A stretch of 64,000 nucleotides of DNA from positions 869,001-933,000 of the forward strand of contig NC_007512.1 of assembly GCF_000012485.1 (NCBI RefSeq), given 5' to 3'. Positions 39,983-62,967 of the stretch are shown one piece after another. This DNA comes from Pelodictyon luteolum DSM 273 (GTDB lineage Bacteria > Bacteroidota > Chlorobiia > Chlorobiales > Chlorobiaceae). A program made the position numbers and the translations under genes. The notes below the pieces were generated by a model. That model saw only the letters and a program-made list of their open reading frames with translations. It was not told where the DNA came from and did no database searches. Position 1 is the first letter of the stretch, and every line of letters begins with the position of its first letter.

Positions 39983-40069
39983 GGAGAGGTCGCATAGTGG
40001 TCTAGTGCGCTCGCCTGGAAAGCGGGTAGGGTGTAACAGCCCTCGAGGGTTCGAATCCCTCCCTCTCCG
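39983..40069 (+). tRNA. tRNA-Ser (anticodon GGA)
   Basis: An 87-base class II tRNA. Acceptor GGAGAGG (39983-39989) pairs with CCTCTCC (40062-40068). The anticodon loop CTGGAAA gives GGA, and a long variable arm and GGTTCGAATCC T-arm are present. CCA is not encoded. It reads UCC and UCU. Confidence 0.95.
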
Positions 40070-40158
40070 CTGAACGTCGTCCTTTCGGGCACCGGAATTT
40101 TTCTGGTATTTTGCCTTGGGAATGGCTATCTTTTGTTCCTGTTCTTTACATGCCAAGT

Positions 40159-40241
40159 GGAGGATTAGCCTAATTGGTAAGGCAGCAGTCTTGAAAACTG
40201 CCGGGTTCACGCCCATGGGGGTTCGAGTCCCTCATCCTCCG
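40159..40241 (+). tRNA. tRNA-Ser (anticodon UGA)
   Basis: An 83-base class II tRNA. Acceptor GGAGGAT (40159-40165) pairs with ATCCTCC (40234-40240). The anticodon stem GCAGT/ACTGC encloses CTTGAAA, giving UGA, which reads UCA and related serine codons. A variable arm (CGGGTTCACGCCCAT) is present. CCA is not encoded. Confidence 0.92.
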
Positions 40242-40255
40242 CAAAAAAAACACCT

Positions 40256-40348
<93 letters not shown>

Positions 40349-40380
40349 AATGACAGTATGAAGCTGTCTCATATAGTCCG

Positions 40381-40408
40381 AAAAGCCCTTTAAAATCAGG
40401 GCTTTTTT
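40381..40408 (+). terminator. Terminator after the serine tRNA cluster
   Basis: AAAAGCCCT (40381-40389) pairs with AGGGCTTTT (40398-40406), with two more T. It ends the tRNA transcript just before the integrase remnant. Confidence 0.8.
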
Positions 40409-40426
40409 GGTTTATGGCTCTAATGA

Positions 40427-40727
40427 GGCCTACATTGGCAGCAATATCAGGGCACCCCTGTCGTGAAATCACCCCTCCAACTCGCAGCCATGCTAGTTCG
40501 TCCGCACTGGCGAGCTTCAGAACATGGAGCGCTCACAGATTGAATTCGAAACCGGCACCTGGTCGATTCCTGCGGAACTCAGGATGATGAAGCATCCGCA
40601 CGTTGTCCGGCTCTGAGGGCAGTACATTGCAATTCTTCGAAAACTGCAGCCGGAGCGGCGCGGCCAATATGTCTTCCCAGGACGAGCCTCTCGTCCGATG
40701 CGAAACAACAGCATCAATGACCATTGA
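40427..40727 (+). pseudogene. Tyrosine integrase remnant (island/prophage type)
   Basis: Three joined frame segments spell the middle of a P4-type tyrosine integrase. Segment one reads YQGTPVVKSPLQLAAMLV up to about 40495. After a frameshift segment two reads FVRTGEL (the catalytic Arg box), SIPAELRMMKHPHVVRL. An in-frame TGA at 40614-40616 follows, then GQYIAILRKLQPERRGQYVFPG and RPMRNNSIND. The N-terminal domain, the later H-x-x-R box and the catalytic Tyr are missing. It starts about 80 bp after tRNA-Ser(GCU), the usual site for such integrases, so it marks an old island. Confidence 0.8.
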
Positions 40728-41469
40728 AATCGAAGCGGAAGTCCCTGACGGGGCGCCCGATTACGAAGATTTGCGTCCGGTTTTCGACTGGTTTGCACGA
40801 GATCTGGTCATTTTCAATGAGCAGGCCCCACTGAATACGCAGTTTGCCATTCAGCTGCTAAAAGATGCTGAAAGCAAAAAGCGGATATGCGACTTCCTCA
40901 CAACGGCAGATATCAGTATTTCTGATATCGAAGTTGTTACCGATAAAGTGCCCGGGCAAAAAGTGCATTTTGATCTGACCGCCGGCAAAACCGAACTGCG
41001 AAGTGAAGAGTTTGAGGAAAGCAGATTGCGTTTCACCCATGTCACTGACCAGGGGAAAGCGGTCTTCGATCTTGATGATGAGTCCAATGGCACGCGCATC
41101 CTGGTGTTTCTGGCAGCGCCTATTCTCGATATTCTCGACAAGGGTCTTACGCTGGTCATCGATGAACTCGATACCAGTCTGCATACCCTTCTGGTCAGGG
41201 AGCTGGTAAGATTGTTCCATCGTCCCGAAATCAACCGGCGTGGTGCGCAGCTGCTATTCACCACGCATGACACCTCCCTGCTTGACGCACCGGGCCTGTT
41301 TCGACGTGATCAGATATGGCTGGTCGAAAAAGATACCAGCCAGGCCTCGACATTGGCTGCTCTTGCGGAATTCAGTCCCCGTAAAAACGAGGCTTTGGGG
41401 AAAGGGTACCTGAGCGGCCGGTATGGAGGCATTCCCTTCCTGACCCATCATTCAGGGGAGGTTGACTGA
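40717..41469 (+). pseudogene. RloA-like AAA ATPase, N-terminal half missing
   Basis: About 250 residues remain of an AAA-type ATPase that normally has over 400. The kept part has the SNGT signature, LTLVIDELDTSLHTLLV (Walker B), LLFTTHDTSLLD with the switch His, and the C-terminal YLSGRYGGIPF. The Walker A half is absent because the frame begins within the integrase remnant. The pairing with RloB directly downstream (TGATG overlap) supports the RloA name. It cannot be a working ATPase as it stands. Confidence 0.75.
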
Positions 41470-41957
41470 TGGCGCGTGATAATTCACCCAAAATCCGGCA
41501 GATAAAGCATCTGGAACGTAAACTGGGGCGACGGGCCAGCTATGAGCGGATATTGATCGTTTCTGAGGGAAGCAAAACCGAACCGAACTACTTTGAAGAA
41601 ATCCGTTCCACGCTTCGCCTGCATACCGCCAACGTGGTGGTACGTCCCGGCGAACTTGGAACAGCACCCTTTCAGGTTGTCCACTATGCCAAACAGCTTT
41701 TTCTTGAGGGTGACAGGCACCGAAACATCCAGCGCCTCGCCTTCGAGCAAGTCTTTGCCGTATTTGACCGTGATGATCACAAGAACTATTCCAATGCGTT
41801 GAACGCTGCCGGATTGCTTGATGGAACCCCCAGGAACGACAACAGGCAGTTGATCCGATTCCAGGCGATTCCTTCAGTGCCAAGCTTCGAACTTTGGCTC
41901 CTGATTCATTTTGAAAACATTCAGTCACCAATCAATCGCCATGCAGTTCTTTGCTGA
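41469..41957 (+). pseudogene. RloB-like protein, C-terminally cut
   Basis: The 162-residue frame begins like RloB: RILIVSEGSKTEPNYFEEI (Toprim-like acidic strand), QVFAVFDRDDHKNY with the acidic pair, and PSFELWLLIHFENI. It stops at TGA 41955-41957, yet the next codons in the same frame read LKKHLG, as relatives would continue, before similarity fades. So the gene lost its C-terminus by a stop followed by decay. RloA-RloB pairs equal the AbiL type of abortive-infection system against phage. Confidence 0.72.
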
Positions 41958-42102
41958 TTGAAAAAGCATCTTGGGGCGGCATGCTATAGTTATTGTATGA
42001 GGAATCGAAACGAGTATGCGCTATGTATATTACGGAACAAGTATAAACACCGTGAGGCAGTACGCAAATCAATTCATAACCGTCATAGGGAGATAGCAGA
42101 CA

Positions 42103-42849
42103 ATGGACATTCCAAGGATTTTCAGCATCACTGAAAATGCTCATCGCATCCACGACCCGTTCACACCAGAAAAACTCGCTGCTCTCGGAGCCGCTTTGAA
42201 AATGGAACCCGGGACCCGCATTCTCGACCTCGGCTGCGGCTCGGGCGAGATGCTGTGCACCTGGGCACGTGAATATGGCATCTTCGGCACTGGTATCGAC
42301 ATGAGCCAATTGTTCTTTGCTCAAGCCGGGCGCCGCGCTGAAGAACTCGCTGTTGACGGCCGGGTCAAGTTCATTCACGACGATGCTTCCGGTTACGTAG
42401 CCGCCGAAAAAGTCGATGTGGCAGCCTGTCTCGGTGCCACGTGGATTGGCGGGGGAGTCGCCGGCACCATCGAACTTCTTGCCAGAAGCCTCCGTACTGG
42501 AGGAATCATCCTCATCGGCGAACCCTATTGGCTGCACGTACCATCGACAGAAGATGTTGCCAGGAGTTGCCGTGCCGGTTCGATAGCCGACTTTCTCACG
42601 CTTCCGGAACTGCTCGCCTCTTTCGGAAGACTCGAGTACGACGTTGTGGAAATGGTTCTGGCAGACCAGGACAGCTGGGACAGGTACGAGGCAGCCAAGT
42701 GGCTCACAATGCGGCGATGGCTCGAAGCCAATCCCGACGACGAGTTAAGCAATGATGTTCGAGCTGAATTGACCTCGGAACCCGTGCGCTACGCCACGTA
42801 CACACGTGAGTACCTCGGCTGGGGAGTGTTCGCATTGATGGCGCGGTAA
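42103..42849 (+). CDS. Class I SAM-dependent methyltransferase
   Basis: The 248-residue product has the SAM loop ILDLGCGSGEMLC, an acidic strand end GIDMS and a later IILIGEPYW segment. AGGGAGA lies nine bases before the ATG. The substrate is unknown. It follows the decayed RloAB island and may be the first chromosomal gene beyond it or cargo of the island; codon use gives no clear answer by eye. Confidence 0.8.
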   Translation: MDIPRIFSITENAHRIHDPFTPEKLAALGAALKMEPGTRILDLGCGSGEMLCTWAREYGIFGTGIDMSQLFFAQAGRRAEELAVDGRVKFIHDDASGYVAAEKVDVAACLGATWIGGGVAGTIELLARSLRTGGIILIGEPYWLHVPSTEDVARSCRAGSIADFLTLPELLASFGRLEYDVVEMVLADQDSWDRYEAAKWLTMRRWLEANPDDELSNDVRAELTSEPVRYATYTREYLGWGVFALMAR

Positions 42850-43224: not shown

Positions 43225-43947
43225 TCAATGTGAATACGCGGCAAGCAGGCTCCAGACCAGCGCCGCCGCAGCAATGGCGGGCCCGAACGGCCATTCAGCG
43301 TCGGGGTCAGGGCGTTTCAGCCATCGCCACACCGCATACCAGACCACGGTACCCACACTGGCCCATACCACCATGTAGAGCACGTCGAGCAGTCCCCACC
43401 AGGCTCCAAGTGCGGCCAGGAGTTTGATGTCCCCGCCACCGATCCCGTCTTCACCCCTCCGGCGGCGGTACAGCCATGCCAGCCCGCCGAAGATGCCCGC
43501 CACAACGGCAGCCGATGCCGCGCTTTCCGGCAGGTTCTGCGAAGTCAGCCCCGCCCAGCTTGCGGCCAGGCCCGAGAGCCCCAGCGGCAGGACAATCCGG
43601 TCCGGCAGGAGCGTGGTGTCCCAGTCGATGAGGGCGAGGAGTATGAGGGCGCTGGCAAGGCCGGCCCCGGGAAGCCGGGACAGGAATGCCGGATCGCTTG
43701 TGCTGTTGGCCAGACAGATCCACAGCCCCGCGTTCAGCAGCGGCACCCAGATGCGTCTTGCCGGCGGCAGAGCCTCTTTGAGGCCCCCGCCGGGGCCCCG
43801 CCATTCCTCGAGTGAGACTTCGCCATCGAGCAGTACCTTCTCCGCAGTGATGCGGGCCAGAGGCACCAGCAGGTACCCCGCAAACAGCCCGCCGGGCAGC
43901 CATGGCAAGTGGTTCAGGAGGGCATGCCATAGGTCGTTGGGGCTCAT
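43225..43947 (-). CDS. cpaA: Prepilin peptidase (TadV/CpaA, A24)
   Basis: The 240-residue membrane protease has both catalytic Asp motifs: ALIDWDTTLLPD and GEDGIGGGDIKLLAALGAWWG. It should cleave the Flp prepilin and TadE leader at the inner membrane. It is larger than the minimal CpaA (about 170 residues) because an N-terminal part is kept, but the Cys motif of the methylase domain is absent. It is the last gene of the tad operon and overlaps tadC by four bases. Confidence 0.88.
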   Translation of the reverse strand: MSPNDLWHALLNHLPWLPGGLFAGYLLVPLARITAEKVLLDGEVSLEEWRGPGGGLKEALPPARRIWVPLLNAGLWICLANSTSDPAFLSRLPGAGLASALILLALIDWDTTLLPDRIVLPLGLSGLAASWAGLTSQNLPESAASAAVVAGIFGGLAWLYRRRRGEDGIGGGDIKLLAALGAWWGLLDVLYMVVWASVGTVVWYAVWRWLKRPDPDAEWPFGPAIAAAALVWSLLAAYSH

Positions 43948-44891
43948 GGCATCGGTTTGTTTGAGAGGGCATGCATCACCTGGATGACTGCCGGGCCCAG
44001 AAGCACCATCATGAGGGTGGGGAAAATGAACAGGATGAGCGGAAGGAGCATCTTGACGGGGATTTTGGCTGCGAGCTCCTCGGCCCGCTGTGTGCGTCGA
44101 GAGCGCATCATGTCGGACTGCACGCGCAGCGATTCGGCGAGGCTGGTCCCGAACCTGTCGGCCTGCGCAAGCACGGAGACGAGGTCGTCCAGATCTTCAA
44201 GGCGTGAGCGCAGTGCCAGATTGCGCAGGGCTTCGATGCGGGTGGCACCGGCCCGGATTTCAAGGGCCGAGAGGTAGAACTCCTGCGCAAGGTCGGGATT
44301 GGTGCCGGCCATTTCCTTCGATATTCGGGTAATGGCGGCATCGATGCCCATCCCCGACTCGGTGCATATGACCATGAGGTCAATCATGTCTGGCAGGCTG
44401 TCGCGCAGCCGTCCGATACGTTTTCTCGTGATGAAGCCAAGCAGCATTTCGGGCAGATAGTAGCCTGCGGCGGCGGTGCACACCACAAAGATCATGGTGC
44501 GGGTCGGGGGGACACCGGGCGCTCTTACATACAGGAACAACCCGAGCAGGACCGGAAGCACGACGGAGAGCAGGGTTTTCAGGGCGAAGTAGTATCGGGG
44601 CGCGTTGATGCTGCGGATGCCGGCCTGCAGAAACAGTAGCTGCACGCCGGAGCTCTGCCACCCTTTTTCCGGGATCGAGAGTTTTGAGAGCACGTCGATG
44701 ACTGGTGTGATTTTGCGGGCGGCGGCTGATTTGGGCCGGGCGCCCTCATCCGGCAGGCGGCTCTCGTGGAGGATGCTGATAAGTCGTTTTTTGATGGCAT
44801 TGCCGGCCCCCCAGTTGTAGATGGCGAGCACAACCGAGGCGACGGCGGCCCCCGAGAGCAGGGTGGTAAGGATCAGGAGGGTGTTTTGCAT
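43944..44891 (-). CDS. tadC: Flp pilus platform protein TadC (T2SF domain)
   Basis: The 315-residue product has an N-terminal membrane segment, two mid segments and a T2SF domain with DLMVICTESGMGIDAAITRIS and ADRFGTSLAESLRVQSD, and a C-terminal segment (KMLLPLILFIFPTLMMVLLGPAVI). With TadB it forms the inner-membrane platform for pilus assembly. It follows tadB with a 17-bp gap. Confidence 0.88.
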   Translation of the reverse strand: MQNTLLILTTLLSGAAVASVVLAIYNWGAGNAIKKRLISILHESRLPDEGARPKSAAARKITPVIDVLSKLSIPEKGWQSSGVQLLFLQAGIRSINAPRYYFALKTLLSVVLPVLLGLFLYVRAPGVPPTRTMIFVVCTAAAGYYLPEMLLGFITRKRIGRLRDSLPDMIDLMVICTESGMGIDAAITRISKEMAGTNPDLAQEFYLSALEIRAGATRIEALRNLALRSRLEDLDDLVSVLAQADRFGTSLAESLRVQSDMMRSRRTQRAEELAAKIPVKMLLPLILFIFPTLMMVLLGPAVIQVMHALSNKPMP

Positions 44892-44908
44892 GGCGGCGGT
44901 TCCCGGAG

Positions 44909-45877
44909 TTAAACCTTGAAATTGACGATGCGTTTGAGCAGGAAGAACCCGACGGACATGAGGCCGAGAGCGGAGAGGGTGAGTTTGTGGCCCTCGGGAG
45001 TGGTCCAGAGCACCGAGATGTATCCGGGGTTTATGAGGGTAAGGATGGCAACGAGCGCAAAGGGCATGCTTCCGAGTACCCAGGCCGATGCGCGCCCTTC
45101 GGATGACAGGGTGCGGATCTTGCCGCGCAGCTTGATGCGCTGGCGAATCGTGTTGGAGAGGCCGTCGAGCAGTTCGGTGAGGTTGCCGCCGGTTTCGTGC
45201 TGGATCTGGAGGGAGATGACAAAGAAGTTCAAGTCAGTGCTCTGCACCCGGTCGGCCAGCTCGCCGATGGCGTCTTTGAACGGGATGCCGAAGCCGATCT
45301 CATCAAAGACGGTTTTGAATTCATGGCCTATGGGGTCCCTGAACTCCGTGCCAAGCATGCCGATGGCCGAGGTGAGGCTGTGGCCGGCGCGCATGGACCG
45401 GGAGATGTAGTCAAGCGCTTCGGGGAGTTTGTCCCCGAAGGCACGGCGGCGCCGGTTGGCCGCGCGCGACAGCCAGAGCACCGGCGTGGAGGCGATGGCT
45501 GCTGCAGGCACAAGGATGAAGAGGGCGTTGATGCCCATGAGCATGCCCGGCACGCCGACCAACGCAAACAGCCCGAGTGTCATGGCCAGCACCTGCAAGG
45601 CGCAGAGCGGGCTGTGGGCGCGCCGGATAAGGGCTTCGAGCTGACTGAATGCTTTAAAGTGTGAACGCAGCCAGCTCTCACCTGCACCCTCACGCACCGT
45701 GTTCTGCACCCCTCCGGGACCCTTCCCGGCACGGTGAACGGTGTTGTGGATTGCCTGCAGACGATGATTCTTTGCCTTGCTGCGGGGGTCGAAGAGGCCT
45801 ACCCACACCCGGTGGAGCAGCAGCACCGTCAGGAGGACTGCCAGAAATGCAATGAGAGGAAAGAATAACAACGCCAT
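44909..45877 (-). CDS. tadB: Flp pilus platform protein TadB (T2SF domain)
   Basis: The 322-residue product has membrane segments at both ends and a T2SF domain: LPEALDYISRSMRAGHSLTSAIGML and HETGGNLTELLDGLSNTIRQR, preceded by a PVLWLSRAANRRRR turn. The ATG at 45877 starts a hydrophobic segment; the frame is open further upstream but those residues are low-complexity noise from the cpaF strand. Confidence 0.88.
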   Translation of the reverse strand: MALLFFPLIAFLAVLLTVLLLHRVWVGLFDPRSKAKNHRLQAIHNTVHRAGKGPGGVQNTVREGAGESWLRSHFKAFSQLEALIRRAHSPLCALQVLAMTLGLFALVGVPGMLMGINALFILVPAAAIASTPVLWLSRAANRRRRAFGDKLPEALDYISRSMRAGHSLTSAIGMLGTEFRDPIGHEFKTVFDEIGFGIPFKDAIGELADRVQSTDLNFFVISLQIQHETGGNLTELLDGLSNTIRQRIKLRGKIRTLSSEGRASAWVLGSMPFALVAILTLINPGYISVLWTTPEGHKLTLSALGLMSVGFFLLKRIVNFKV

Positions 45878-45890
45878 GATGTGCTCCCTG

Positions 45891-47284
<1,394 letters not shown>

Positions 47285-47309
<25 letters not shown>

Positions 47310-48430
47310 AGCGTGCGTTTTGCATGACGGCTGCCCGTGAGCTGCAGGGCCCAGTCGACAATGGTTTTGGAAAGCCTGGATTCGGGTGCCGCCTGCAGGA
47401 GGGGCTGGCCCATCATGAGGGACTCTTCCACAGCGTCGGCGTCGGAGGGGAAGCGCCGCTCAATCGGACGCTCGATGACTTTTTCGATTTCGGTACAGGT
47501 GAGCCGTACGCTGGCGTCGGCACGGTTGAGGATGATGTTGATCTCCGGGACGGGTTTATCGAGCTCGCCGGAGAGTTTGAGCAGATGGCCCGCCCGGCGA
47601 AGCGAAGGCAGCGAGGGTGTCGATACGATTGAGAGCTCATCGAGCTGCTCAAGTACCCAGACGCCGACCTGGTCGATGCATGAGCCGAGGTCTACCAGAA
47701 TGAAGTTGTAGGATTCTCTGGCGATTTGGACGAGCTGGCTTACGCGCGCGGGTTCGATGTCGACGATTTTTTCGAACGTTGCAGGCGAGGAGATGAGGTC
47801 GAAGGTGGAGCTGAGGTGCTGCACCATGCTGTCGAGGAGTGAACGGTCGAGCCGGTCGGATTGACAGGAGATGTCGGCCAGATCCTGGCAATGGGTTTCT
47901 CCGGTAAGGTACATGTCAAGGTCGCCGAATGGCAGGGATGCGTCGATTGCCAGCACCCTGATGGCCGGCTCGCAGGAAAGCGCGAAGGCCAGGTTTGCCG
48001 CCAAGCAGGAACTGCCGTCCCCGCCTTTGGAAGAGACAAACCCGATTACCCGGCCGCGGCTGGTGCAGGCGCCGCTGGTACGGAGGTCTATGCGCCGGAT
48101 GACCTGGCGGAGGGTTTCGGGGGCGCTGTCCTGAATGACTTCACGTACACCGGCCTGCATGAGGGAGATCAGCAGTTCCGGCTGTGAGGCCGGGTGCAGG
48201 GCCACGATGGCGGCGTGCGGCAGAGCGACGGAGAGCAGCTCCACCTCGCGGATGTACTCACTGCCGGCATTCTCAAAGCCCGCCAGCACGACGAGGTCGG
48301 GTTTCCGCGCCGTGAGCTGGCGGACCATGTCTGCCGGCTCGCCGACCAGCCCTGTCAGCTGGTGCTGGCCGGTTTCAAAGAGGATGCCGGGAACCTCCCA
48401 TGGGCGGGGAGAGTACACAACGATGTTCAT
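47285..48430 (-). CDS. cpaE: Pilus assembly protein CpaE/TadZ (MinD-like ATPase)
   Basis: The 381-residue product has an N-terminal receiver-like domain (IVALHPASQPELLISLMQAGVREVI) and a C-terminal MinD/ParA-like ATPase with GFVSSKGGDGSSCLAANLAFAL. The Walker A is of the deviant type, ending Ser-Ser rather than Lys-Thr/Ser. Members place the pilus machine at a cell site. It lies between tadG and cpaF. Confidence 0.88.
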
Positions 48431-48436
48431 GGGTGG

Positions 48437-49486
48437 TTATTTGACCAGTATGGGGGGCGTGTAGGCACCGTATGATACCCCGTTGCCGGTGCCCGGATTT
48501 GTGCCGGGGATGGTTGCTGCGGGGATGAAATGCCCGGTGATATATTTTCCGCCCTGATTGTAGCCATCAATATGAAACGCAGCAATTGCAACGACAGGAA
48601 CAAAGGCATTGGTTGCAACCTCGTTTACGACGAAGATGCCGACATCGGTGCCGACGGGTACTTCTGCGTATAAGGTTGCCTTGGCTCCCGGCTGGATGTA
48701 CGTGTCATCTCCGATTGATAATTCGGTGGTGTTGCCGTTGTCGATGAGGTCCCGCATGAATGGGACATCGGGGTTTGCTATCGACGACTGAAATGTGGTC
48801 CATTGGCCCGACAATACGTCAACACCGTTGAATGTGTAGACGGATCCGAGGTCAATGGTAGGCGCGACGCCATTCTGCAGAACGGGAGTGTTGGTGTTGA
48901 AATCCCAATAATGTTCGAGCATTGCCAAGCCGATAACAAAGGGAAACAGACCGGTGCCGCCTGCTGGTGGAGCTATGACGGCAACGGAGCTGCCCTGGAC
49001 ATCCTGTTCGGCGATCCCTAGAACGGGTGCGAAAAAGAGCCTCAGGGGGCCGTTGTTAAGGGTCCGGGAGATGGTGATGGTGACCTGCACTGCGGCAACA
49101 TCCCCTGCAGCGGGCACGCCGGGTGTGCCGGGGGCGCGCAGGCCCTCTGAGGGGTCCTGGATGTTCCAGTAGCCGGTTTCAATGAGGGCATCCTGAATCC
49201 CGGCGCCATTGGCGACGTTGCGCCGTGCAATATCCAGCGCAGCGGACCCGGCTGCTGACCAGTTGTAGGGGTTTCCCCCGGAATCGCTGAGTGAGCGGGC
49301 TCCGCCGAGAGCCGCTGCGTCGGCCGCGTTCTGCAGCTCGACCCTGGTCAGATGGATGCGGGCCAGATCGACAGCCAGAGCGGCAAAGCCCAGGAGCACC
49401 GGCAGCGTGAGGGCAAAGAGGATGGCGGCTCCGCCGCGCTCGCTCTGCAGCCGTTTTTGTCTCTGAGGTGAATGTGCCATGGTCAT
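48437..49486 (-). CDS. TadG-like pilus protein
   Basis: The 349-residue product has an N-terminal membrane segment in the pattern GGAAILFALTLPVLLGFAALAVDLARIHLTRVELQNAADAAALGGAR, typical of TadG/TadE-like Flp proteins. No vWA domain is obvious in the rest, which is rich in Gly, Val and Asn. It overlaps tadE by four bases and is likely a membrane-anchored extracellular part of the pilus system. Confidence 0.82.
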   Translation of the reverse strand: MTMAHSPQRQKRLQSERGGAAILFALTLPVLLGFAALAVDLARIHLTRVELQNAADAAALGGARSLSDSGGNPYNWSAAGSAALDIARRNVANGAGIQDALIETGYWNIQDPSEGLRAPGTPGVPAAGDVAAVQVTITISRTLNNGPLRLFFAPVLGIAEQDVQGSSVAVIAPPAGGTGLFPFVIGLAMLEHYWDFNTNTPVLQNGVAPTIDLGSVYTFNGVDVLSGQWTTFQSSIANPDVPFMRDLIDNGNTTELSIGDDTYIQPGAKATLYAEVPVGTDVGIFVVNEVATNAFVPVVAIAAFHIDGYNQGGKYITGHFIPAATIPGTNPGTGNGVSYGAYTPPILVK

Positions 49487-49953
49487 TCGAGCCTCATGGT
49501 TGTTTGTGACGAGATCACCAGATCCGGCACAATGAAGATGCCGGTGAAATCGACGGTCGCCGAGACCGTGAGGATATTGTCAAGAGTCGGAGTGGAATTC
49601 GTGGAAACAGCCGCACTCACGGGGGCGCCGAAGGAGATGAGGTTGTTCTGGCAGACGCGGTCTGCCGCGAGGGTTGCGCTGCTGCGTATGATGGCGTCGG
49701 TACGGTCCGGAACGAACAGGACGCCGGCACGCGCTCCCTCCCTGGTGGCCATGGTGAGTACGGTTTTGTTGTACAGGGCGGCAGAAAATGACACAACACC
49801 GAACAGGAGCGCAAGAAACACGGGCAGGATGAGCGCAAATTCGACCAGCACGCTGCCCTTCCGGGATCGGATGCACCTCGCTTTCGGGAAAGGAAGGGTT
49901 GGCGTGGGCCTCATTTTTTTTGTCTTGATGCTCATGGAGGCCATGGTGGTCAT
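49483..49953 (-). CDS. TadE-like pseudopilin
   Basis: The 156-residue product has a type IV-like leader RSRKGSVLVEFALILPVFLALLFGV; cleavage after the Gly would leave a Glu at position 5, as in pseudopilins. The rest is a soluble Thr/Ser/Val-rich domain. It should be processed by the CpaA peptidase of this locus. Starts overlap by four bases at both ends. Confidence 0.85.
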   Translation of the reverse strand: MTTMASMSIKTKKMRPTPTLPFPKARCIRSRKGSVLVEFALILPVFLALLFGVVSFSAALYNKTVLTMATREGARAGVLFVPDRTDAIIRSSATLAADRVCQNNLISFGAPVSAAVSTNSTPTLDNILTVSATVDFTGIFIVPDLVISSQTTMRLE

Positions 49954-51410
49954 TTCGCCCCTCCTGAACCATCCAGCTTTCCTTCTATGAACAGCTCAAG
50001 GGGAGCAGGCGGAACGAACCGGTCGGTGGGGAGCTCCGGCGCCGGGTTGCCGGCCTTGACCAGGGTCGGGCGGACAATGACCATGAGTTCGGTCGTTTCC
50101 TTATTCATCTCGGTATGCCGGAAGAGCGATCCGAGAACGGGAATGGAGGAGAGCAGGGGGACGGAGCGCTTGACTTCGGTGAGATTGTCGCGGAGCAGGC
50201 CGCCGATGACCAGATTCTCACCCTCCTGCATCTGCACGGTGGTGGACGCGTAGCTGAGTTTGAATGCCGGCAGGCTGGTGGATGTGCCTGCAGTGACTGC
50301 TTCTTTGAGGGGCTCGGAGACCTCGGGGGCAACCTTGAGCGAAATACGGCCGGAATCCAGCACGGTTGGCGTGCATCGCAGCCCTACCCCGTAGGTTCGT
50401 TCAACGTAGTCGACCGATCCGTTGGTGCCGAGGGTGGGGGTATAGACTTTACCGCCGACGAGGAAGTACCCCTCCTCTCCGCTCATGGCGACAATGGTAG
50501 GCTCGGCAAGGATTTTAACCAGCCCTTTTTTTTGCTCGGCATCAACTGTGAGGCGGTTGCCTTCCGTGCTGCCGGGCATGCCGCCGGTCTTGAGCAGGAG
50601 GTCGAGGGTGGCGTTGCTGACGAACCCGGTCATGAGGCTTCCCTGTGTGCTGCCACGTCCCTGTGTCCAGCCGATGCCCAGGCTTTCAATGTGGGAGCGG
50701 GACACTTCTGCGATGCGGACTTCGAGCCGGACCTGCTGCGGATCGCGGATTTTGAGGAGATTGACCACGCGGGGCGTATCGCGGGCTGCGGGCGACCGGC
50801 TGGCGGCCGCACCGGGCAGGGCGGACGGTGCGGCAGGAGCACTGTCATGGATGCCGGAGATCCCTGGGGCCCCAACAGATCCGGATGCTCCGGCACTTCC
50901 GGCCAGCAGTGCGGATTCGGGGTTGAGCGCCGGCACCGTGCCGCCGGAATATGCAATGACCAGGCGGTAGGCCGTGTCAGCAGCCATGGCGTCAGATGCA
51001 GAGCCGCTGAGTACCAAAGCATGGCCCGAGGCGTAGAGCTGAATGCCTGTCTCCCCGGGAAGCACGACCCTCAGCAGCTCCTGTATGGGGGCGACATTGC
51101 GGCTCACCCGGAGCGATCTGCTGCTGACCTTTCCTTTACGGTCCCATACGGTAAGATTGGTCGAGCCTGTTTTCTTTCCCAGCAGATAGATCTCCGAAGG
51201 GTTCAGCATGATATAGTCGGCAACTTCGGGATCGCCGACCGCCACCCGCGTAACGGGTTGAGGGAGCCGATAGACCCTCGATTCTCCCACAGGCACCCGG
51301 TACGGCGGGACATAGGCCGATCCGGCAGCGGGAGCGGTGGCGGCGAGGAGTGCGGCAAGGGTACTTGCCCTGCAGCCCGAACGCATGATGGAGGGTATCT
51401 TCATCTGCAT
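49950..51410 (-). CDS. cpaC: Flp pilus secretin CpaC/RcpA
   Basis: The 486-residue product has a signal sequence, an N-terminal BON/pilus-secretin region (RVYRLPQPVTRVAVGDPEVADYIMLNP) and a C-terminal secretin domain with VRLEVRIAEVSRSHIESLGI, GEEGYFLVGGKVYTP, EGENLVIGGLL and PVLGSLFRHTE. An Ala/Gly/Ser-rich insert lies between them. It forms the outer-membrane channel of the Flp pilus. Confidence 0.92.
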   Translation of the reverse strand: MQMKIPSIMRSGCRASTLAALLAATAPAAGSAYVPPYRVPVGESRVYRLPQPVTRVAVGDPEVADYIMLNPSEIYLLGKKTGSTNLTVWDRKGKVSSRSLRVSRNVAPIQELLRVVLPGETGIQLYASGHALVLSGSASDAMAADTAYRLVIAYSGGTVPALNPESALLAGSAGASGSVGAPGISGIHDSAPAAPSALPGAAASRSPAARDTPRVVNLLKIRDPQQVRLEVRIAEVSRSHIESLGIGWTQGRGSTQGSLMTGFVSNATLDLLLKTGGMPGSTEGNRLTVDAEQKKGLVKILAEPTIVAMSGEEGYFLVGGKVYTPTLGTNGSVDYVERTYGVGLRCTPTVLDSGRISLKVAPEVSEPLKEAVTAGTSTSLPAFKLSYASTTVQMQEGENLVIGGLLRDNLTEVKRSVPLLSSIPVLGSLFRHTEMNKETTELMVIVRPTLVKAGNPAPELPTDRFVPPAPLELFIEGKLDGSGGAK

Positions 51411-51416
51411 GGCGGT

Positions 51417-52217
51417 TTAAGGGGTGGCGGCAGGTTGGCGGCTGGTGCCGCGGATTTCATCTGGCTTGCTGCCTTGAGCCGGAGCTGCTGCATGTGCAGC
51501 GCCTGCAGGGCCCTGTCGGCCGGCGGACTGTGCCTGTATGATATCGGCCAGACGTACACCCGCAGAGTTTATTTCGCCTGTGTCGAGTTCGTTGCGGAGC
51601 ACCAGCGAGAGCACCCCGATGCTGCGTGCAAGATCAAGTGTTTCGGATTCGTGCGGCGTAAGCTCAAGGGTGACGGCATTCACCACTTTGGGTTTGTCGG
51701 GTTCCGCGGTGGTTTCCTGGGCCACGGCCAGTACTTTGATGCGTGAGAGCACCGTTCGGGAAAAAGGCTGTCGCTCAGCATCTCTGCCGCTGACCAGAAT
51801 GTCCACATAGCTGCCAGGCAGGGCAAAGCCGGCAACGGCAATAACCTCGTTCACTTTAACGGTAATGGCGCGCTTGCCGTCCGGGATGATCGATGACAAG
51901 CCGCCGGAGGCATTCGTCGGGGCCAGTTTGCCGGGCAGAACCGGCTCTCCGGCAATCATCGACACGCGGGCAATCCGGCCCGCCACATCGTCGGTCCGGG
52001 CGGACGCACCCTCTGGAACGGTTGACCGGGGCCATTGGACGGCCTTGAGTTGATTCTCGGCAATGGCGGTGCCTGCGTCGATGGCCCGGGCCGCAATGAC
52101 GACCGTAGGCCCTGACACCTCACTCCTGCTTTGCACGACACCCATCCAGCGGGCGGTGATGAAAGCCGCCATCGCTCCAAGCGTGAGAGCGATGGCAGCA
52201 TGGGTCGGTAGTTTCAC
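51417..52217 (-). CDS. cpaB: Flp pilus assembly protein CpaB/RcpC
   Basis: The 266-residue product has one N-terminal membrane segment, an SAF domain (AARAIDAGTAIAENQLKAVQWP; AGRIARVSMIAGEPVLPGKL) and a RcpC/CpaB domain with KVNEVIAVAGFALPGSYVDILVSG. It is periplasmic and partners the secretin. It lies 30 bp downstream of flp. Confidence 0.9.
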   Translation of the reverse strand: MKLPTHAAIALTLGAMAAFITARWMGVVQSRSEVSGPTVVIAARAIDAGTAIAENQLKAVQWPRSTVPEGASARTDDVAGRIARVSMIAGEPVLPGKLAPTNASGGLSSIIPDGKRAITVKVNEVIAVAGFALPGSYVDILVSGRDAERQPFSRTVLSRIKVLAVAQETTAEPDKPKVVNAVTLELTPHESETLDLARSIGVLSLVLRNELDTGEINSAGVRLADIIQAQSAGRQGPAGAAHAAAPAQGSKPDEIRGTSRQPAATP

Positions 52218-52247
52218 CGTTTTAGGGGTTAGGGGGTAAAATCGTTG

Positions 52248-52430
52248 TTACTCAGTGGTGCCGGCAGCACCCGAAAGAGCGTCTGAGATGGTGGTGAAAA
52301 TGGTCGTCAGATTCTCTCCGACAAGACCAAGAGCTGTGATGACCACAACTGCAACCAGCGCTGCAATCAAGGCGTACTCGATCATGGTTACGCCTTTTTG
52401 TGATGTGATGGGGGAGAGCCTGTTCAGCAT
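52248..52430 (-). CDS. flp: Flp/Fap-type pilin
   Basis: The 60-residue prepilin has a short leader ending in QKG, then VTMIEYALIAALVAVVVITALG. Cleavage after G13 gives a mature pilin of about 47 residues with Glu5 and Tyr6, the Flp signature. It is the first gene of the tad operon and its main pilus subunit. Only one pilin copy is seen. Confidence 0.95.
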   Translation of the reverse strand: MLNRLSPITSQKGVTMIEYALIAALVAVVVITALGLVGENLTTIFTTISDALSGAAGTTE

Positions 52431-53351: not shown

Positions 53352-54641
53352 TCATCCGCTGAAGTTCCGGCTCCTCAGGTGGCGGTGGATGTGCCCGGCA
53401 GCGAGTGCGGTGAGGAGGGTGAGGAGGGTTCCGTAGAACGATGACGGGCTTTGGTTGAGCTGCCACGCCAGAAGTCCTGCCAGGACGGCAGAGAGCACAA
53501 GGGTGAAGGCGGCGATGAGGGGGCGGCTTCCTCCGTAGTAAGGGGCAAGCCGGTAATGGGCAGAGAGAACGAAGATGTAGATGATGGTAGAGACCGAGCT
53601 CATGATGGAGGCGATTGCGGTCATGTCGAAGAGGAGCGCGAAGAGGAGGCCGAGGCCTGCGGTTATGGAGAGCCCCTCGTTCGAACCAAACCATGCTTTT
53701 CGTTCAAACACGACAGGCAGCTCTCCCTCTTTTGCAAGGGCGTAGGCGATGTTGGCTCCCCCATAAATGGTTGCGTTCAGTGCGGAGGCAATCGAGATGA
53801 GCGCACCCGTGGAGATGAAAACAAAGCCCCGGCTGCCGAAGAACGGCTTTGCCGCTATGGCAAGGGCGTTGTCGCGGGCACTGATGAGTTCCCGAAGAGG
53901 GAGATTGCCTATCGCCACCGCAGCAACCAGTACATACACGACGATGACGAGGAAAATGCAGATGTAGATGGCTCTCGGGACATTCCGTTCAGGGTTTTCG
54001 ATGTTTTCGGACGCATTGGTGATCAGCCCGAAGCCCATGTAGGAGAGGAAGAAGACGATCGAGCCGGTGAGGATCTCTTTGGTGGCCTGCATGCCGAATG
54101 AAGGGTAGATGCGTTCGGGATTGATTGACTGGAACCCCGCCGCGATGAAGATGAAGAGGATAGAGAGCTTGAAGATCACCATGCCGAATTCAACCCTCCC
54201 GGTTGTCTTGCTCCCGAAACAGTTGAGGGCGGTGAAGAACAGGAGTACGGCGGCTTCGGCTGCGCCCATGGCGAGGGCGGTTGCGGGGATATGCAGAAGC
54301 GGCAGCAGGTAGCCGGCGAATCCCTTGATGAAGAGCGAGATGGAGACGACGTAGCTGAGCCACAGAAGGACTGCCAGGGAGCCGGTGAGCGCATTGTCGC
54401 CGAAGCCCTTCTGGATGAAGGCGATCGGCCCTGCATTCGAAATGATCTTTCCTCCGAGCGTCGCAAAGGAATAGGCCACCATGAGGGCGAGGAGTCCTGA
54501 AAGGATGAAGGCTTCAGGCAGGTGCCTGCCCGAGATCTCTGCCCCGATGCCGAAGATGGTGAAGATGCTCGCACCGATCATGCTCCCTACGGCCATTGCA
54601 ACGGCTTCCGGAAGCGAGAGCTTTTTGTTTTCACCTTTCAT
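53352..54641 (-). CDS. APC-superfamily amino-acid permease
   Basis: The 429-residue product has about 12 membrane segments and opens with LPEAVAMAVGSMIGASIFTIFG, the Gly-rich unwound helix 1 of APC transporters. Later SYMGFGLITNASENIENPERNVPRAIY is the helix 6 region of the family. Likely an inner-membrane amino-acid or polyamine transporter; the substrate cannot be told. It is divergent from ogt with a 31-bp gap. Confidence 0.88.
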   Translation of the reverse strand: MKGENKKLSLPEAVAMAVGSMIGASIFTIFGIGAEISGRHLPEAFILSGLLALMVAYSFATLGGKIISNAGPIAFIQKGFGDNALTGSLAVLLWLSYVVSISLFIKGFAGYLLPLLHIPATALAMGAAEAAVLLFFTALNCFGSKTTGRVEFGMVIFKLSILFIFIAAGFQSINPERIYPSFGMQATKEILTGSIVFFLSYMGFGLITNASENIENPERNVPRAIYICIFLVIVVYVLVAAVAIGNLPLRELISARDNALAIAAKPFFGSRGFVFISTGALISIASALNATIYGGANIAYALAKEGELPVVFERKAWFGSNEGLSITAGLGLLFALLFDMTAIASIMSSVSTIIYIFVLSAHYRLAPYYGGSRPLIAAFTLVLSAVLAGLLAWQLNQSPSSFYGTLLTLLTALAAGHIHRHLRSRNFSG

Positions 54642-54672
54642 GGCCGTACGTTATACAAACACCCGAAGCTCC

Positions 54673-55140
54673 ATGCACCTCTATTTCCGCCATACCCTCA
54701 TCGGCACCATCGGCATCGCCGAGCGGAGGGGCGCCATATGCAATCTGTATTTCCAGCAGCAGTTCCCTTACCCCGACGCTGCACTCTGCAGAACGGATCT
54801 CCTGCAGGAAGCGTTCCGGCAGCTTGACGCCTGGCTTGCCGGCAGCATCAGGACATTTTCCCTTCCCCTGGAACCGGCACCGACCCCGTTCGCCCGTTGT
54901 GTGCGTGAGGCGCTTCTCTGTATTCCCCCCGGTGCCGTGTCCACCTATTCCGGGGTTGCTGAAGCCATCCTCCACCCTCATGCCGCACGGGCCGTAGGCT
55001 CGGCCTGCAGCCGTAACCCGCTGCCCCTGTTCATCCCCTGTCACCGCGTCGTGCCGGCCTCCGGCGGGACCGGTCTCTACCGGGGAGGAGCGGCGCTGAA
55101 GAGCACCCTTCTTGAGCTCGAGCAGCGCCGCACCGCCTGA
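54673..55140 (+). CDS. ogt: Methylated-DNA-protein-cysteine methyltransferase
   Basis: The 155-residue repair protein removes alkyl groups from O6-alkylguanine by transferring them to its own cysteine. The active-site IPCHRV motif (C123) and RAVGSACSRNPLPLFIPCH region are clear, with the GAVSTYSGVAEAI helix before it. Length fits Ogt rather than Ada. The ATG at 54673 is the natural start; a longer open frame overlaps the permease gene. Confidence 0.92.
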   Translation: MHLYFRHTLIGTIGIAERRGAICNLYFQQQFPYPDAALCRTDLLQEAFRQLDAWLAGSIRTFSLPLEPAPTPFARCVREALLCIPPGAVSTYSGVAEAILHPHAARAVGSACSRNPLPLFIPCHRVVPASGGTGLYRGGAALKSTLLELEQRRTA

Positions 55141-55249
55141 TCCCGTGCTGTTCTCCCGCGGGTCATCACTACGCCTTTTTTTGTGGAATGGTTTGAAAAG
55201 TCCAAATCTTGAGGAAGATTGTCTAAAGCTTTTGAGGCCTTCTGTTGGT

Positions 55250-56167
55250 ATGTTTACAGCATTGGATGCATTGACCAACCTTTTCAACTCCGGAAGTGCA
55301 TTGAAGCGTGATCATGACATACCGGTCAGCAGGCTGGAGAACAGTTTCTTTGAAATCGTCCGGCTCTCCGACCTGGATGCTTCGATGAAGCGGCCGAACC
55401 ACCGGCACGACTTTTTCAAGATCCTCTGGTTCACCTCCAGCAGTGATGCGGCGCATTTCATTGATTTCGAATCCTATCCTGCCGAATCGGGACTGATCTA
55501 CCTGATTGCCCCCGGTCAGGTGCATGCCTATGAAGGACTTTCCGGTAGCGGCTACGCCATCGTTTTTTCACTTGACCTGTTCAGCAGCATCCAGAACCCC
55601 CGGCTCAGGCTCATGTTCAACCCGTTCATGAACCGGGGCATCCCGTCCGGGAGCGACGAGGCCGGCGTTCTCCGCCAGCTTGCCGAACTGATGGTACTGG
55701 AATCCGGAGGAAAGAAAGATTTTTTCATTCTTCTGTCGTATGTTGAAGCATTTTTGCGCCATATTGCACGCATGCACAGCGAGGCGTCATTCGTCCTGAC
55801 AAAGGCAGGGGAGCGCATGGGTAAACTTTTTGCTCTCGTTGACGGTAGTTTCCGCAGCGAGCGCCGCTCGGATTTTTACGCTTCTGCGCTCGGTATCACC
55901 CCGAAACGCCTGAACGAGATCCTCAACGAACGCTTCGGCACGACCCTTACCCGGATCCTGCACCGGCGGCTGATCCTTGAAGCAAAAAGGGAGGTTGCCT
56001 ACGGGAGGAAGAGTTTCAAGGAGATCGCCTTTGAACTGGGCTTCAGCGACCAGGCCTACTTCAGCAGGTTCTTCAAGGCGCAGGCCGGCATGATGCCGGC
56101 GGACTTCCGGAGGACCATGGCCTCGGGTCCCGGCGGTGCCATGCCGAAAGATGCTGGAGGATCATGA
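55250..56167 (+). CDS. AraC-family transcriptional regulator
   Basis: The 305-residue product has an N-terminal cupin-like sensor domain (FKILWFTSSSDAAHF; IYLIAPGQVHAYEGL) and a C-terminal AraC DNA-binding domain with two helix-turn-helix units: FYASALGITPKRLNEILNERFGTT and FKEIAFELGFSDQAYFSRFFKAQAGMMPADFR. It lies directly upstream of the RND efflux genes in the same direction, so it may control them. The effector is unknown. Confidence 0.9.
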   Translation: MFTALDALTNLFNSGSALKRDHDIPVSRLENSFFEIVRLSDLDASMKRPNHRHDFFKILWFTSSSDAAHFIDFESYPAESGLIYLIAPGQVHAYEGLSGSGYAIVFSLDLFSSIQNPRLRLMFNPFMNRGIPSGSDEAGVLRQLAELMVLESGGKKDFFILLSYVEAFLRHIARMHSEASFVLTKAGERMGKLFALVDGSFRSERRSDFYASALGITPKRLNEILNERFGTTLTRILHRRLILEAKREVAYGRKSFKEIAFELGFSDQAYFSRFFKAQAGMMPADFRRTMASGPGGAMPKDAGGS

Positions 56168-56251
56168 TGTGGCGGGCTGTGTGAGGGCCCATCTGACGGC
56201 CCGATGAGACGGGCAATGCAACTGCAATGCTATCAATGAATTACAGGGTAT

Positions 56252-57367
56252 ATGAACAACACTATGAGATTCTTCCCCGGACGTTCAGTGGCTCCGGCTC
56301 TTCTCGGCTTTGTGCTGCTCTTTTCGGGCTGCGGCCAGAAGGGTGGCGGACCGGGTATTGCGGAGCTGCCCGTCCTGACCCTCAAGCCTTCCGACGCAAG
56401 GGTCGAAAGCGCCTATCCCGCCGTTCTTGAGGGCCGGGTCAACGTTGAAATCCGTCCGAGGATCGACGGCACCCTGGAGAAGATCCATGTCGGGGAGGGC
56501 TCGTTCGTCAAGGCGGGCCAGCCGCTCTTCACCATTGATGACCGTAGCTACCGCCAGGCGTACATGGCTGCTGCGGCAGCCCGTGACGCCGCAAAAATCG
56601 ATGTGGACCGCCTGCTTCCGCTGGTGGAGCACAAGGTGGTTTCCGGGGTGCAGCTTGACGCCGCACGCGCGAAATTCCGTGCGGCCGATGCAGCCAGGGA
56701 GGCGGCACGGATCGACCTCGGCTACAGTGTCCTCCGCTCTCCCGTCAGCGGCTACGTGGGCATGATACCGTTCCGTATCGGAAGCCTTGTTTCGAGGAAC
56801 CAGACGGAGCGGCTGACCATCATCAGCGACAACAGCCGGGTACACGCGTATTTCAGCATGAGCGAATCGGACTTCCTTCGTTTCCGCAACGCCTACCCCG
56901 GACATACCATCCGGGAGAAGCTCCGGGCCGTGCCGGAGGTGCAGCTGCAGCTGTCGGACGGCAGCGGGTTTGCTGAAAAGGGCCGCCTCGAAACCCTCAG
57001 CGGCCTCTTCGATGCTGAAACCGGCTCCATCCGCCTCATGGCCTCATTCCCCAACCCCGACGGCCTGCTCCGTTCAGGCAATACCGGCCGTGTCGTCGTT
57101 CCCTCCATCTACCATGACGTGATCCTCGTTCCAGTGGCTGCCACCGTCGAACTGCAGGACAAGATCCTTGTCGCACTGCTCGACAAAGAGGGAAAACTCA
57201 AGCGCCGGCCGATAAAGGTCGAGGCCTTAAGCGGAAGCGACTATGTGGTGAGCTCGGGAGTGCGTGCGGGGGACCGGATCGTCACGGCCGGCTACGAGCG
57301 CCTCCCGGACGGCACCCCCGTCAAACCCGCCGCCCCGGCTCCCGCCGTATCGAAAGAGAAACCCTAA
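56252..57367 (+). CDS. RND efflux periplasmic adaptor (MFP)
   Basis: The 371-residue product is a predicted lipoprotein (LLFSGC lipobox near residue 25). It has the biotinyl-lipoyl half motifs (VNVEIRPRIDGTLEKIHVGEGSFVKAGQPLFTID), an alpha-hairpin region and a beta-barrel domain with YVGMIPFRIGSLVSRN. It should link the inner-membrane pump to the outer-membrane channel encoded next. Similar to AcrA/MexA. Start 56252 has AGGG three bases upstream. Confidence 0.9.
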   Translation: MNNTMRFFPGRSVAPALLGFVLLFSGCGQKGGGPGIAELPVLTLKPSDARVESAYPAVLEGRVNVEIRPRIDGTLEKIHVGEGSFVKAGQPLFTIDDRSYRQAYMAAAAARDAAKIDVDRLLPLVEHKVVSGVQLDAARAKFRAADAAREAARIDLGYSVLRSPVSGYVGMIPFRIGSLVSRNQTERLTIISDNSRVHAYFSMSESDFLRFRNAYPGHTIREKLRAVPEVQLQLSDGSGFAEKGRLETLSGLFDAETGSIRLMASFPNPDGLLRSGNTGRVVVPSIYHDVILVPVAATVELQDKILVALLDKEGKLKRRPIKVEALSGSDYVVSSGVRAGDRIVTAGYERLPDGTPVKPAAPAPAVSKEKP

Positions 57368-57391
57368 TGACCGCATCCATAGCTTCCGCTC

Positions 57392-60300
57392 ATGTTTGAA
57401 CGCTTCATAACACGGCCGGTTCTGGCCACGGTCATTTCGGTGATCCTCGTCATCCTCGGTCTCGTCGGAATGGTGCAGCTCTCCGTAACCCGCTTCCCTG
57501 ACATCGCTCCGCCGAGCGTCACGGTGACTGCCAGTTACCCCGGCGCCAGCGCCGAAACTGTCGGCCGCTCCGTCGCCCCCCCCCTTGAGGAGGCCATCAA
57601 CGGCGTCGAGAACATGACCTACATGACCTCGACCTCGGCCAACGACGGTTCACTCTCCATCAATGTGTTCTTCAAGCAGGGGACCAACGCCGACCAGGCC
57701 GCAGTCAACGTGCAGAACCGTGTGGCGCAGGCCACAAGCCGCCTGCCGGCCGAGGTGAACGAGATCGGCGTGTCGACCATCAAGCGCCAGAACAGCCAGA
57801 TCATGCTCGTGAACCTCTCGAGCAGCCGTGAGGAATACGACCAGACTTTTCTGCAGAACTATGCGAAGATCAACATCGTCGACGACCTTGCCCGTGTGCC
57901 GGGTGTGGGGCAGGTGTCGGTGTACGGGAACATGGACTACTCCATGCGCCTCTGGCTGCGTCCTGAAAAGATGGCGGCTTACGGGGTGAACCCGGATGAG
58001 GTCATGGCTGCAGTCAGGAGCCAGAACCTTGAGGCCGCTCCCGGTTCGTTCGGTGAGAGCGGAGGGACGTCGATGCAGTACACCATCAAATACCCCGGCA
58101 AGTTCGCCTACCCCGGGGAGTTTGAGCATATCGTCGTGAGGGCCAATCCCGATGGTTCCATCCTCCGGCTCGGGGACCTGGCCCGCGTGGAGTTCGGCGC
58201 ATACAGCTACGGGGTCAGGGTAAAGGCCAACGGAGATGCGGGCATTGTGCTTGCGGTCTACCAGGCTCCGGGTTCCAACGCCAACGAGGTCGAGACCCGC
58301 CTTCGCGAAGTTCTCAAAAAAGCCTCACACTCGTTGCCCGAGGGACTTTCCGTCTCCATTCCCTTCAGTTCCAAAAAGGTGGTCGATGAGTCGATCGAGC
58401 AGGTCCAGCACACCCTCATCGAGGCATTCCTCCTCGTCTTCCTCGTCGTGTTCCTTTTCCTTCAGGACTTCCGCTCGACCCTCATTCCGGCCATTGCCGT
58501 GCCGGTGGCCATTCTCGGCACGTTCTTCTTCATGAACCTGTTCGGGTTCTCCATCAACGTCCTCACCCTGTTCGGCCTCGTGCTCGCCATCGGCATCGTC
58601 GTCGACGACGCCATCGTGGTCGTTGAGGCCGTGCACGCCAAAATGGAGAAGACACACTGGCCGGCAACGGCAGCGACGGTGTCGGCCATGCGTGAAATCA
58701 CCACGGCCATCGTCACCATCACCCTCGTCATGGCCTCCGTTTTCCTTCCGGTGGGTTTCATGGAGGGATCGACCGGCGTTTTCTACCGCCAGTTCGCCTT
58801 CACGCTCGCCATCGCCATTTTGATCTCCGCACTCAACGCCCTGACCCTCAGCCCCGCCCTCTGCGCCCTGTTCCTCGGCGGACTGCACAGTACCGGCAAA
58901 GAGGAGGGAAAAGGCCACCGCTTCAGCGCCTTCCAGCGCCGTTTCTTTACCGGATTCAACAGCGGCTTCAATGCCCTCAAGCGGCGGTACCTCGGCCTGC
59001 TTCTCCTGCTTCTGCGCAGAAAAAGCGTCGCGCTCTCAGCACTCGGCCTCATCACCGTGCTCTCTTTATGGATGTTCAAAACCACACCGACCGGATTCAT
59101 CCCTGAAGAGGACAACGGGTTTGTGATCGTTTCCGTCTCGATGCCCGCCGGCGCTTCGCTTGAGCGTACAGAGGCGGTCATGGACCGAGCCGCAGTGATG
59201 CTCCGCTCCATGCCGGCAGTCGAACGGGTCATCTCGGTGGCCGGCATCAACATTCTTTCGCGCAGCTCGTCACCCTCCGCCGGCCTCATTTTCATGCAGC
59301 TGAAGGATCTCCATCTACGCGGACCCGGCGGGGACATCAAGAGTGTCATCGGCACCATCACCGGCAGTTTGTACTCCATCAAGGAGGGCTCGTTCTTTGC
59401 CCTCTCCATGCCAACCGTTCCAGGCTTCAGCACGGTCGGCGGCCTGGAGTTCGTCCTGCAGGACCGCAGCGGCGGCAGCCTCCAGAAATTCAGCGGCATC
59501 ACTGAAAGCTTCATCGGCAGCCTCATGCAGCGCCCGGAGATCGCGTTTGCCTTCACCACCTTCAACGCATCCTATCCCCAGTACTCGCTCGAAGTGGATG
59601 CGGCGCGGGCCAAGCGCATCGGGGTCGAAGTCAGCGATCTGCTGCGGGTGATGCAGGCATACTACGGCAGCATGCAGGCCTCCGACTTCAACCGGTTCGG
59701 CAAGTACTACCGGGTGGTCATGCAGGCCGAGCCGGACGCCCGGCGCGACCCTCAGTCACTCAGCGGCATCTTCGTGAAAAGCAGTTCCGGCAGTATGGTG
59801 CCGGTCAGCTCCCTCATTACCCTCAAACGGGTCTACGGCCCTGAATCGGTCGACCATTTCAACCTCTTCAACGCCATCCCCATCAACGCCGTCGTGAGTC
59901 CCGGCTACAGCACCGGCCAGGCCATCGCGGCCATCGGGGAGGTATCGGCCGCAACGCTGCCGACCGGGTTCACCTACGACTGGAAAGGACAGAGCCGTGA
60001 GGAGCTGGAGTCGAGCGGGGGACAGATGGCCATCTTCCTGCTCTCCGTCATTTTCGTCTACTTCCTGCTTTCCGCCCTCTACGAAAGCTATCTCCTGCCG
60101 CTCGCCGTCATGCTCTCCATACCGACCGGGCTTCTCGGCGTGTTTATCGGCATCAGGGCGGCCGGCATCGAGAACAACGTCTACGTGCAGGTGGCCATCA
60201 TCATGCTGATAGGGCTTCTGGCCAAAAACGCCATCCTCATCGTCGAGTTCGCCATGCAGCGCAGGATTGCGGGCATGTCGCTCGGCCGGGCGGCCATAGA

Positions 60301-62031: not shown

Positions 62032-62166
62032 AGGGGGTGTGCCGGGGTGAACGCATTTGCCCGTTACGATGTTCTTTAGAGGGAGAGTGTTTGGTATGAG
62101 GGCCCCCGGGGTCGGACGATAAGCCCTCCCCTACATCTTTACAGTAATAATCAGAAGGAATCGGTG

Positions 62167-62967
62167 ATGACTCAGGTGGAATACAACGCGACGGTAAGCA
62201 GGAAAGTCATGGTAACGCCCGACATCATGATGCTGGCGCTTGTGACCGATACCCCGCGAAACGGAGCCGAAGCCGGCCAGTACCTCCTGCTCGGGCTCTA
62301 CGGCAGAGCACCGCGCTCATCGAATTCCCTCCCGGAATACCCTCCGGTCGCCGACGACCACCTCATCCACCGTCCTTACGCCATCGCATCGCTCTCAACC
62401 CAGACTTCACAGTTCGAGTTCTTCATCTCGCAGGTGAAATCCGGCGAGCTCTCCCCGCGCCTCTTCAACCTTCAGCCGGCTGACCGCCTGCACGTCGGAG
62501 AGAGCATCAAGGGATCGTTTCTCCTCAACGACACACCCGACGGGAGCGATATCATCATGATCGCTACCGGAACAGGCATCGCCCCCTACATCAGTTTTCT
62601 CCGCACGCATATTGCCGAGCGCCCTGAAAGCAAGATGATCGTCATTCAGGGTGCGGCGCATCTGGAGGACCTCGGATACTTCAGCGAACTGGCCTTCCTT
62701 GAGAAAACCTACCCGAACTTTTTCTATGTCCCCACCCTCACCGACCCCGACAGCAGATGGCTCGGTCAGCGGGCTTCGATAGAAGAGCTGCTTGAAAACG
62801 ATTTTCTCCAGAACGGCTTCAACATCACCCCTGATCCGGAGTGGACCCACTTCTTCATTTCCGGCAAGCCCGACATGGTCGTCCGGATATCGCAGTGGCT
62901 CGAAGGGTTCGGCTACAGCCGCCACCATCCCGATGCACCGGGTGAGTACTATATCGAAGAGTACTGA
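62167..62967 (+). CDS. Ferredoxin/flavodoxin-NADP+ reductase
   Basis: The 266-residue FAD enzyme has the FNR motifs HRPYAIASLS (FAD binding), GELSPRLFNL, IMIATGTGIAPYISFLR (nicotinamide site) and a C-terminal GEYYIEEY aromatic end. It resembles the bacterial Fpr type rather than the thioredoxin-reductase-like FNR found elsewhere in green sulfur bacteria. ATG at 62167 was preferred to GTG at 62164; AAGGAA lies upstream. Confidence 0.88.
   Translation: MTQVEYNATVSRKVMVTPDIMMLALVTDTPRNGAEAGQYLLLGLYGRAPRSSNSLPEYPPVADDHLIHRPYAIASLSTQTSQFEFFISQVKSGELSPRLFNLQPADRLHVGESIKGSFLLNDTPDGSDIIMIATGTGIAPYISFLRTHIAERPESKMIVIQGAAHLEDLGYFSELAFLEKTYPNFFYVPTLTDPDSRWLGQRASIEELLENDFLQNGFNITPDPEWTHFFISGKPDMVVRISQWLEGFGYSRHHPDAPGEYYIEEY

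Follow-up and report, generated by a model that had tools for sequence, protein, structure and literature searches.

Truncated integrase and RloAB (AbiL-type) genes next to tRNA-Ser(GCT) in Chlorobium luteolum: probable remains of a decayed defence island

The AbiLii/RloB protein has been described as an OLD-Toprim-related effector that is paired with an AAA ATPase (PMC10440598). Another pairing of an ATPase with a Toprim protein is that of PARIS, in which AriA sequesters the tRNase AriB (PMC12409363). Hma systems were originally defined by a helicase, a methylase and an ATPase (PMC8565338), and were later grouped into the DUF499-centred BREX-related systems (PMC12839542). The literature on RloB, AbiL and Hma serves as background and reports nothing about the locus described here. 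We analysed a window of 64,000 nucleotides (G000:C1:869001-933000) from the single-contig genome (2,364,842 bases) of Chlorobium (Pelodictyon) luteolum, in which pieces of an integrase gene, of rloA and of rloB lie one after the other downstream of three tRNA-Ser genes (Table 1). It is highly probable that a defence island with a P4-type integrase entered at tRNA-Ser(GCT) and subsequently decayed by successive deletions, leaving a dead system.

Table 1. Features of the tRNA-Ser(GCT) locus in the window, with positions counted from the first base of the window.
Feature	Position	Strand	Basis
Three tRNA-Ser genes	39983-40070, 40159-40242, 40256-40348		ARAGORN
tRNA-Ser(GCT), last of the three tRNA-Ser genes	40256-40348	+	ARAGORN; island pieces also 3' of tRNA-Ser in G093 and G050
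tRNA 3' flank with terminator-like inverted repeat	40349-40438	+	Sequence comparison with relatives
P4-type tyrosine integrase relic, about residues 231-322 of 420	40439-40717	+	Frame reading, Pfam, alignment to intact integrase
43-bp scrap attributed to a DUF499 (HmaC-like) ATPase, encoding TIEIEAEVPDGAPD	40719-40761	+	Homology to HmaC C-termini
rloA (AbiLi) 3' part, residues 189-422 of 422	40765-41469	+	PADLOC, Pfam, alignment to relatives
rloB (AbiLii, OLD/Toprim-like) 5' part, 162 codons, ended by TGA	41469-41957	+	Pfam, PADLOC
Four more rloB codons past the stop; end of homology taken as deletion breakpoint	41958-41969	+	DNA match to complete copies

The locus agrees with RloAB / AbiL (AbiLi-AbiLii) in gene order, strand, sequence families and a 1-bp overlap of the rloA stop with the rloB start, and rloB directly follows rloA on one strand, as it does in the related genomes G093, G144 and G075. 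However, complete copies are held by related genomes, whereas in the window both genes are truncated, RloB carries a stop and the pair is most likely non-working, judged from the sequence. The descent of the first piece from rloA is clear: it matched the AbiLi model of PADLOC with E=7.5e-57 at model positions 140-289 of 326. Only its 234 C-terminal residues are left, so that Pfam AAA_21 is covered at positions 175-304 of 304 only, and with the Walker A motif and the N-terminal lobe gone the window holds no RloA-type ABC/AAA ATPase with Walker A. The rloB piece matched Pfam RloB (E=7.4e-27) at positions 1-129 of 195 and ends in a TGA at 41955-41957, in comparison to the complete copy of G144, which spans positions 1-195. 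Past this stop the DNA match to complete copies persists to 41969-41972.

The integrase relic was read in three frames. It starts in one frame with YQGTPVVKSPLQLAAML (40445-40495) and, past a frameshift near 40490-40497, continues in a second frame (40497-40717) with FVRTGELQNMERSQIEFETGTWSIPAELRMMKHPHVVRL, a TGA stop at 40614-40616 and GQYIAILRKLQPERRGQYVFPGRASRPMRNNSIN, and the similarity stops at about 40717. Against Pfam Phage_integrase it scored slightly under the curated cut-off (E=1.6e-4), and an alignment over 88 aa gave 56% identity (E=1e-28) with an intact Chlorobium integrase that has arm-binding, central and catalytic domains, as in the P4 type. The relic thus resembles the P4-type tRNA-associated integrases (Arm-DNA-bind_3, Phage_int_M, Phage_integrase) in this identity, in its position right after the tRNA and in its strand. 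In contrast to an intact P4-type integrase, it has been reduced to about 90 residues of the catalytic domain, which carry a frameshift and a stop; the arm-binding and central domains are missing, as is the C-terminal end that would hold the catalytic HxxR and Tyr. An integrase gene adjoining the 3' end of a tRNA gene, present as a relic in the window, is intact in G013, where a 420-aa integrase follows tRNA-Ser(CGA) with a homologous flank.

A preliminary description had reported an integrase fragment with a frameshift and a stop after the serine tRNAs, and we found it at, or very near, the place described, with the family resemblance expected of it. The proposed families of the other two genes were likewise borne out by the Pfam and PADLOC searches, as was an RloB cut by a stop and followed by a few more matching codons. 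The integrase had been said to run directly into the C-terminal half of RloA; the RloA part is real, but the 43-bp scrap between the two had been missed.

This scrap encodes 14 residues in frame with the downstream rloA piece. Its motif suggested the DUF499 family, and the searches served as the test. In the best matches the sequence reads TIEIEAELPDGAPD, and 13 of the 14 residues match the DUF499 protein of the genus, which is HmaC by PADLOC (E=3e-227), near its C-terminus. Nine DUF499 (PF04465) ATPases retrieved from the family had a readable C-terminus, and the C-terminal region was matched in every one; at the DNA level 28 of 32 bases were the same as in hmaC of G169. As a null, 33,617 fourteen-residue peptides from 124 kb of the same genome were scored against two HmaC proteins: the scrap scored 69, its own shifted versions 56 and 54, and the top unrelated peptide 42. 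A single simple deletion that fused the integrase to rloA, with the intervening 43 bp as chance or filler DNA, would agree with the arrangement in G093, where the integrase piece adjoins rloA and hma genes are absent; with the peptide matching each of the nine intact HmaC C-termini in the genus at scores well beyond the null, and the DNA agreeing, we consider this improbable.

A complete Chlorobium hma operon consists of a helicase, some smaller genes, a large methylase-type gene and the DUF499 ATPase gene, all on one strand. With hmaC as the last gene and on the same strand, this layout fits an operon lost from between the integrase and rloA, where a second, Hma-like defence system probably lay. 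Relative to Hma (HmaC) and the DUF499-centred BREX-related systems, the agreement is confined to those 13 positions of the C-terminal region; the rest of the operon is gone, with no helicase or methylase gene beside the 14 DUF499 codons, and it is by homology that we infer the origin of the scrap. No other PF04465 match was found in the genome of the window, and the peptide had no match in the plasmid collection.

We compared the site with its relatives, of which G093 (a MAG, P. luteolum CIII) is the closest, with 96.7% identity over the tRNA cluster and flank up to 40438 and 98.2% over 40765-41969. Genes for bchH and IMP dehydrogenase lie upstream in both genomes. After the tRNA site G093 carries a piece of the integrase (residues 1-132), which has its own frameshift and two stops, then rloA (422 aa), complete from the start codon and including Walker A (GANASGKS), and lastly an almost complete rloB (209 aa), the end of which is unlike that of complete copies and sits at a contig end. 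The window and G093 therefore retain complementary stretches of the same kind of integrase at the same place (about residues 231-322 versus 1-132), an indication that their common ancestor had an integrase between the tRNA and rloA. In G050, a second species, this tRNA-Ser(GCT) is followed by an intact rloA and by an rloB into which about 146 bp are inserted, and no integrase is present. Both rloA and rloB (224 aa) are complete in G144 and G075, where the stretch that was read shows no tRNA-Ser close by. In G024 the homologous tRNA-Ser(CGA) flank runs into integrase residues 247-380, and this N-terminal deletion is independent of that in the window. The island thus sat at the tRNA and has been broken differently in each lineage.

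The 40349-40438 flank is common to G093, G050 and the integrase-bearing tRNA-Ser(CGA) loci of G013 and G024, and tRNA-Ser(GCT) is the probable attachment gene of the island. A direct repeat of the tRNA 3' end (attR) was not found downstream of the relic in the window, where only the tRNA-Ser genes carry this sequence; one more copy in the genome lies inside another tRNA-Ser-like match. The right end of the original island was not found either. Within 1.5 kb of the other tRNA-Ser(GCT) loci of the genus there was no integrase, rloAB or hmaC, and other lineages carry different cargo at this site. This different cargo, together with rloAB at the tRNA without an integrase in G050, would suit a decayed island in which rloAB, the hma genes and the integrase came from different elements that arrived at the same tRNA separately and were joined by later deletions. 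That both luteolum genomes have an integrase piece between the tRNA and rloA points the other way, and G050 may have lost its own integrase; separate arrivals are possible, though we lean against them. The integrase, hma genes and rloAB together at tRNA-Ser(GCT) were found in none of the genomes compared.

The history that we favour, one P4-integrase element that decayed in place, would have begun in an ancestor of C. luteolum, with integration at the tRNA-Ser(GCT) 3' end. The element would have carried rloA-rloB and probably also a DUF499/HmaC defence operon between the integrase and rloA. Deletions would then have taken away the N-terminal half of the integrase, its C-terminus along with almost the entire Hma-like operon, residues 1-188 of rloA and the 3' end of rloB; one frameshift and two stops would have arisen besides. 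The simplest account has four breaks, at 40438/40439, about 40717/40719, about 40761/40765 and 41969; we infer the order and number of events from these joints. Before its decay the system presumably acted in an AbiL/PARIS-like way, with the ABC-type ATPase RloA restraining the Toprim effector RloB and freeing it upon infection. In the preliminary description a phage-defence island had been inserted at the tRNA, and a comparison of this site in relatives had been set beforehand as a check; G093, with the same tRNA site followed by the integrase N-terminal part, complete rloA and nearly complete rloB, supports the insertion. The single deletion from the integrase into rloA that it proposed has to be given up for at least four breaks, with the scrap between them and the N-terminal half of the integrase lost separately. 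Full-length homologues with the same shortened ends had been named as evidence against it; the four close RloA homologues are instead 420-422 aa long and start 188 residues before the window piece, and among the homologues we found none that ends or starts as the truncated RloA and RloB frames do. The view that the island is now decaying also held, with the frameshift, the stops and the truncation of the integrase, rloA and rloB, and with the substitutions described below.

Changes in rloAB on the window branch, polarised against G144, G075 and G050, comprised 8 nonsynonymous (the stop included) and 3 synonymous ones, small numbers that fit the neutral expectation of 2.7-2.9 : 1 and give no sign of constraint. 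For the neighbouring IMP dehydrogenase gene the comparison of the window with G093 gave 5 nonsynonymous and 43 synonymous changes. As the rloA and rloB pieces are still open and 98.2% identical to G093, the decay is recent and the fragments could be expressed. An ATG at 40717 opens a frame of 250 aa in which the HmaC scrap is fused with RloA, and just two amino acids of the RloA part changed on the window branch. Both features, and the two open frames, could be read as signs of selection on a shortened but functional pair of proteins, or on a chimera of HmaC and RloA fused in frame. We hold this to be very unlikely, since Walker A and the entire N-terminal lobe are gone, RloB is without the last third of its family profile, the branch changes are unconstrained and no homologue shares these ends. 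That the chimera and the short RloB are still made and active, for example as a modifier of another defence system, is hardly credible. Because the N-terminal, ATP-binding half of RloA is lost and the RloB domain stops short of its end, we conclude that the system is dead, although both open frames could be translated.

The locus represents a well-documented but ordinary event. It offers a well-resolved snapshot of a dying defence island, in which two close genomes hold complementary integrase parts and a 43-bp scrap betrays what was probably a second, lost system. Annotators should treat the AAA ATPase frame (250-288 aa) and the RloB-like frame (162 aa) as fragments and not score them as an AbiL system.

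Additionally, we compared the DNA to the right of the relic; in the sequence of G093 this part is absent and gives no right border. G011 has no such relic; downstream of its tRNA come a small methyltransferase gene and then genes for a transporter, a regulator and RND efflux, the counterparts of window positions 53352-62967. By this gene order, most of 40349 to about 53350 (about 13 kb, including a Tad pilus cluster) is extra in the window as compared to G011. The Tad pilus cluster lies at about 43225-52300 and was not found in the close relative G093. A SAM-dependent methyltransferase is encoded at 42103-42849, and its 73%-identical (DNA) relative in G011 is on another contig, away from the tRNA; a 'mad2' match of this gene was judged to be a generic methyltransferase-domain match.

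Some further observations concern the relatives. The joint of the tRNA-Ser(CGA) flank with the integrase catalytic domain in G024 (C127, 5853-6450) resembles that of the window. In G013 (C158, 497-8000) further large open frames follow the intact P4-type integrase at tRNA-Ser(CGA), and the region looks like a complete related integrative element. Finally, rloB is broken independently in several Chlorobiaceae (G050, G100, G216 and G266) in which rloA is mostly intact, by a palindrome-rich insertion of about 146 bp in G050 (locus L085, about 5440-5590) and by in-frame stops or split frames in the other three. Such repeated breakage of rloB with rloA kept could reflect selection against the effector.
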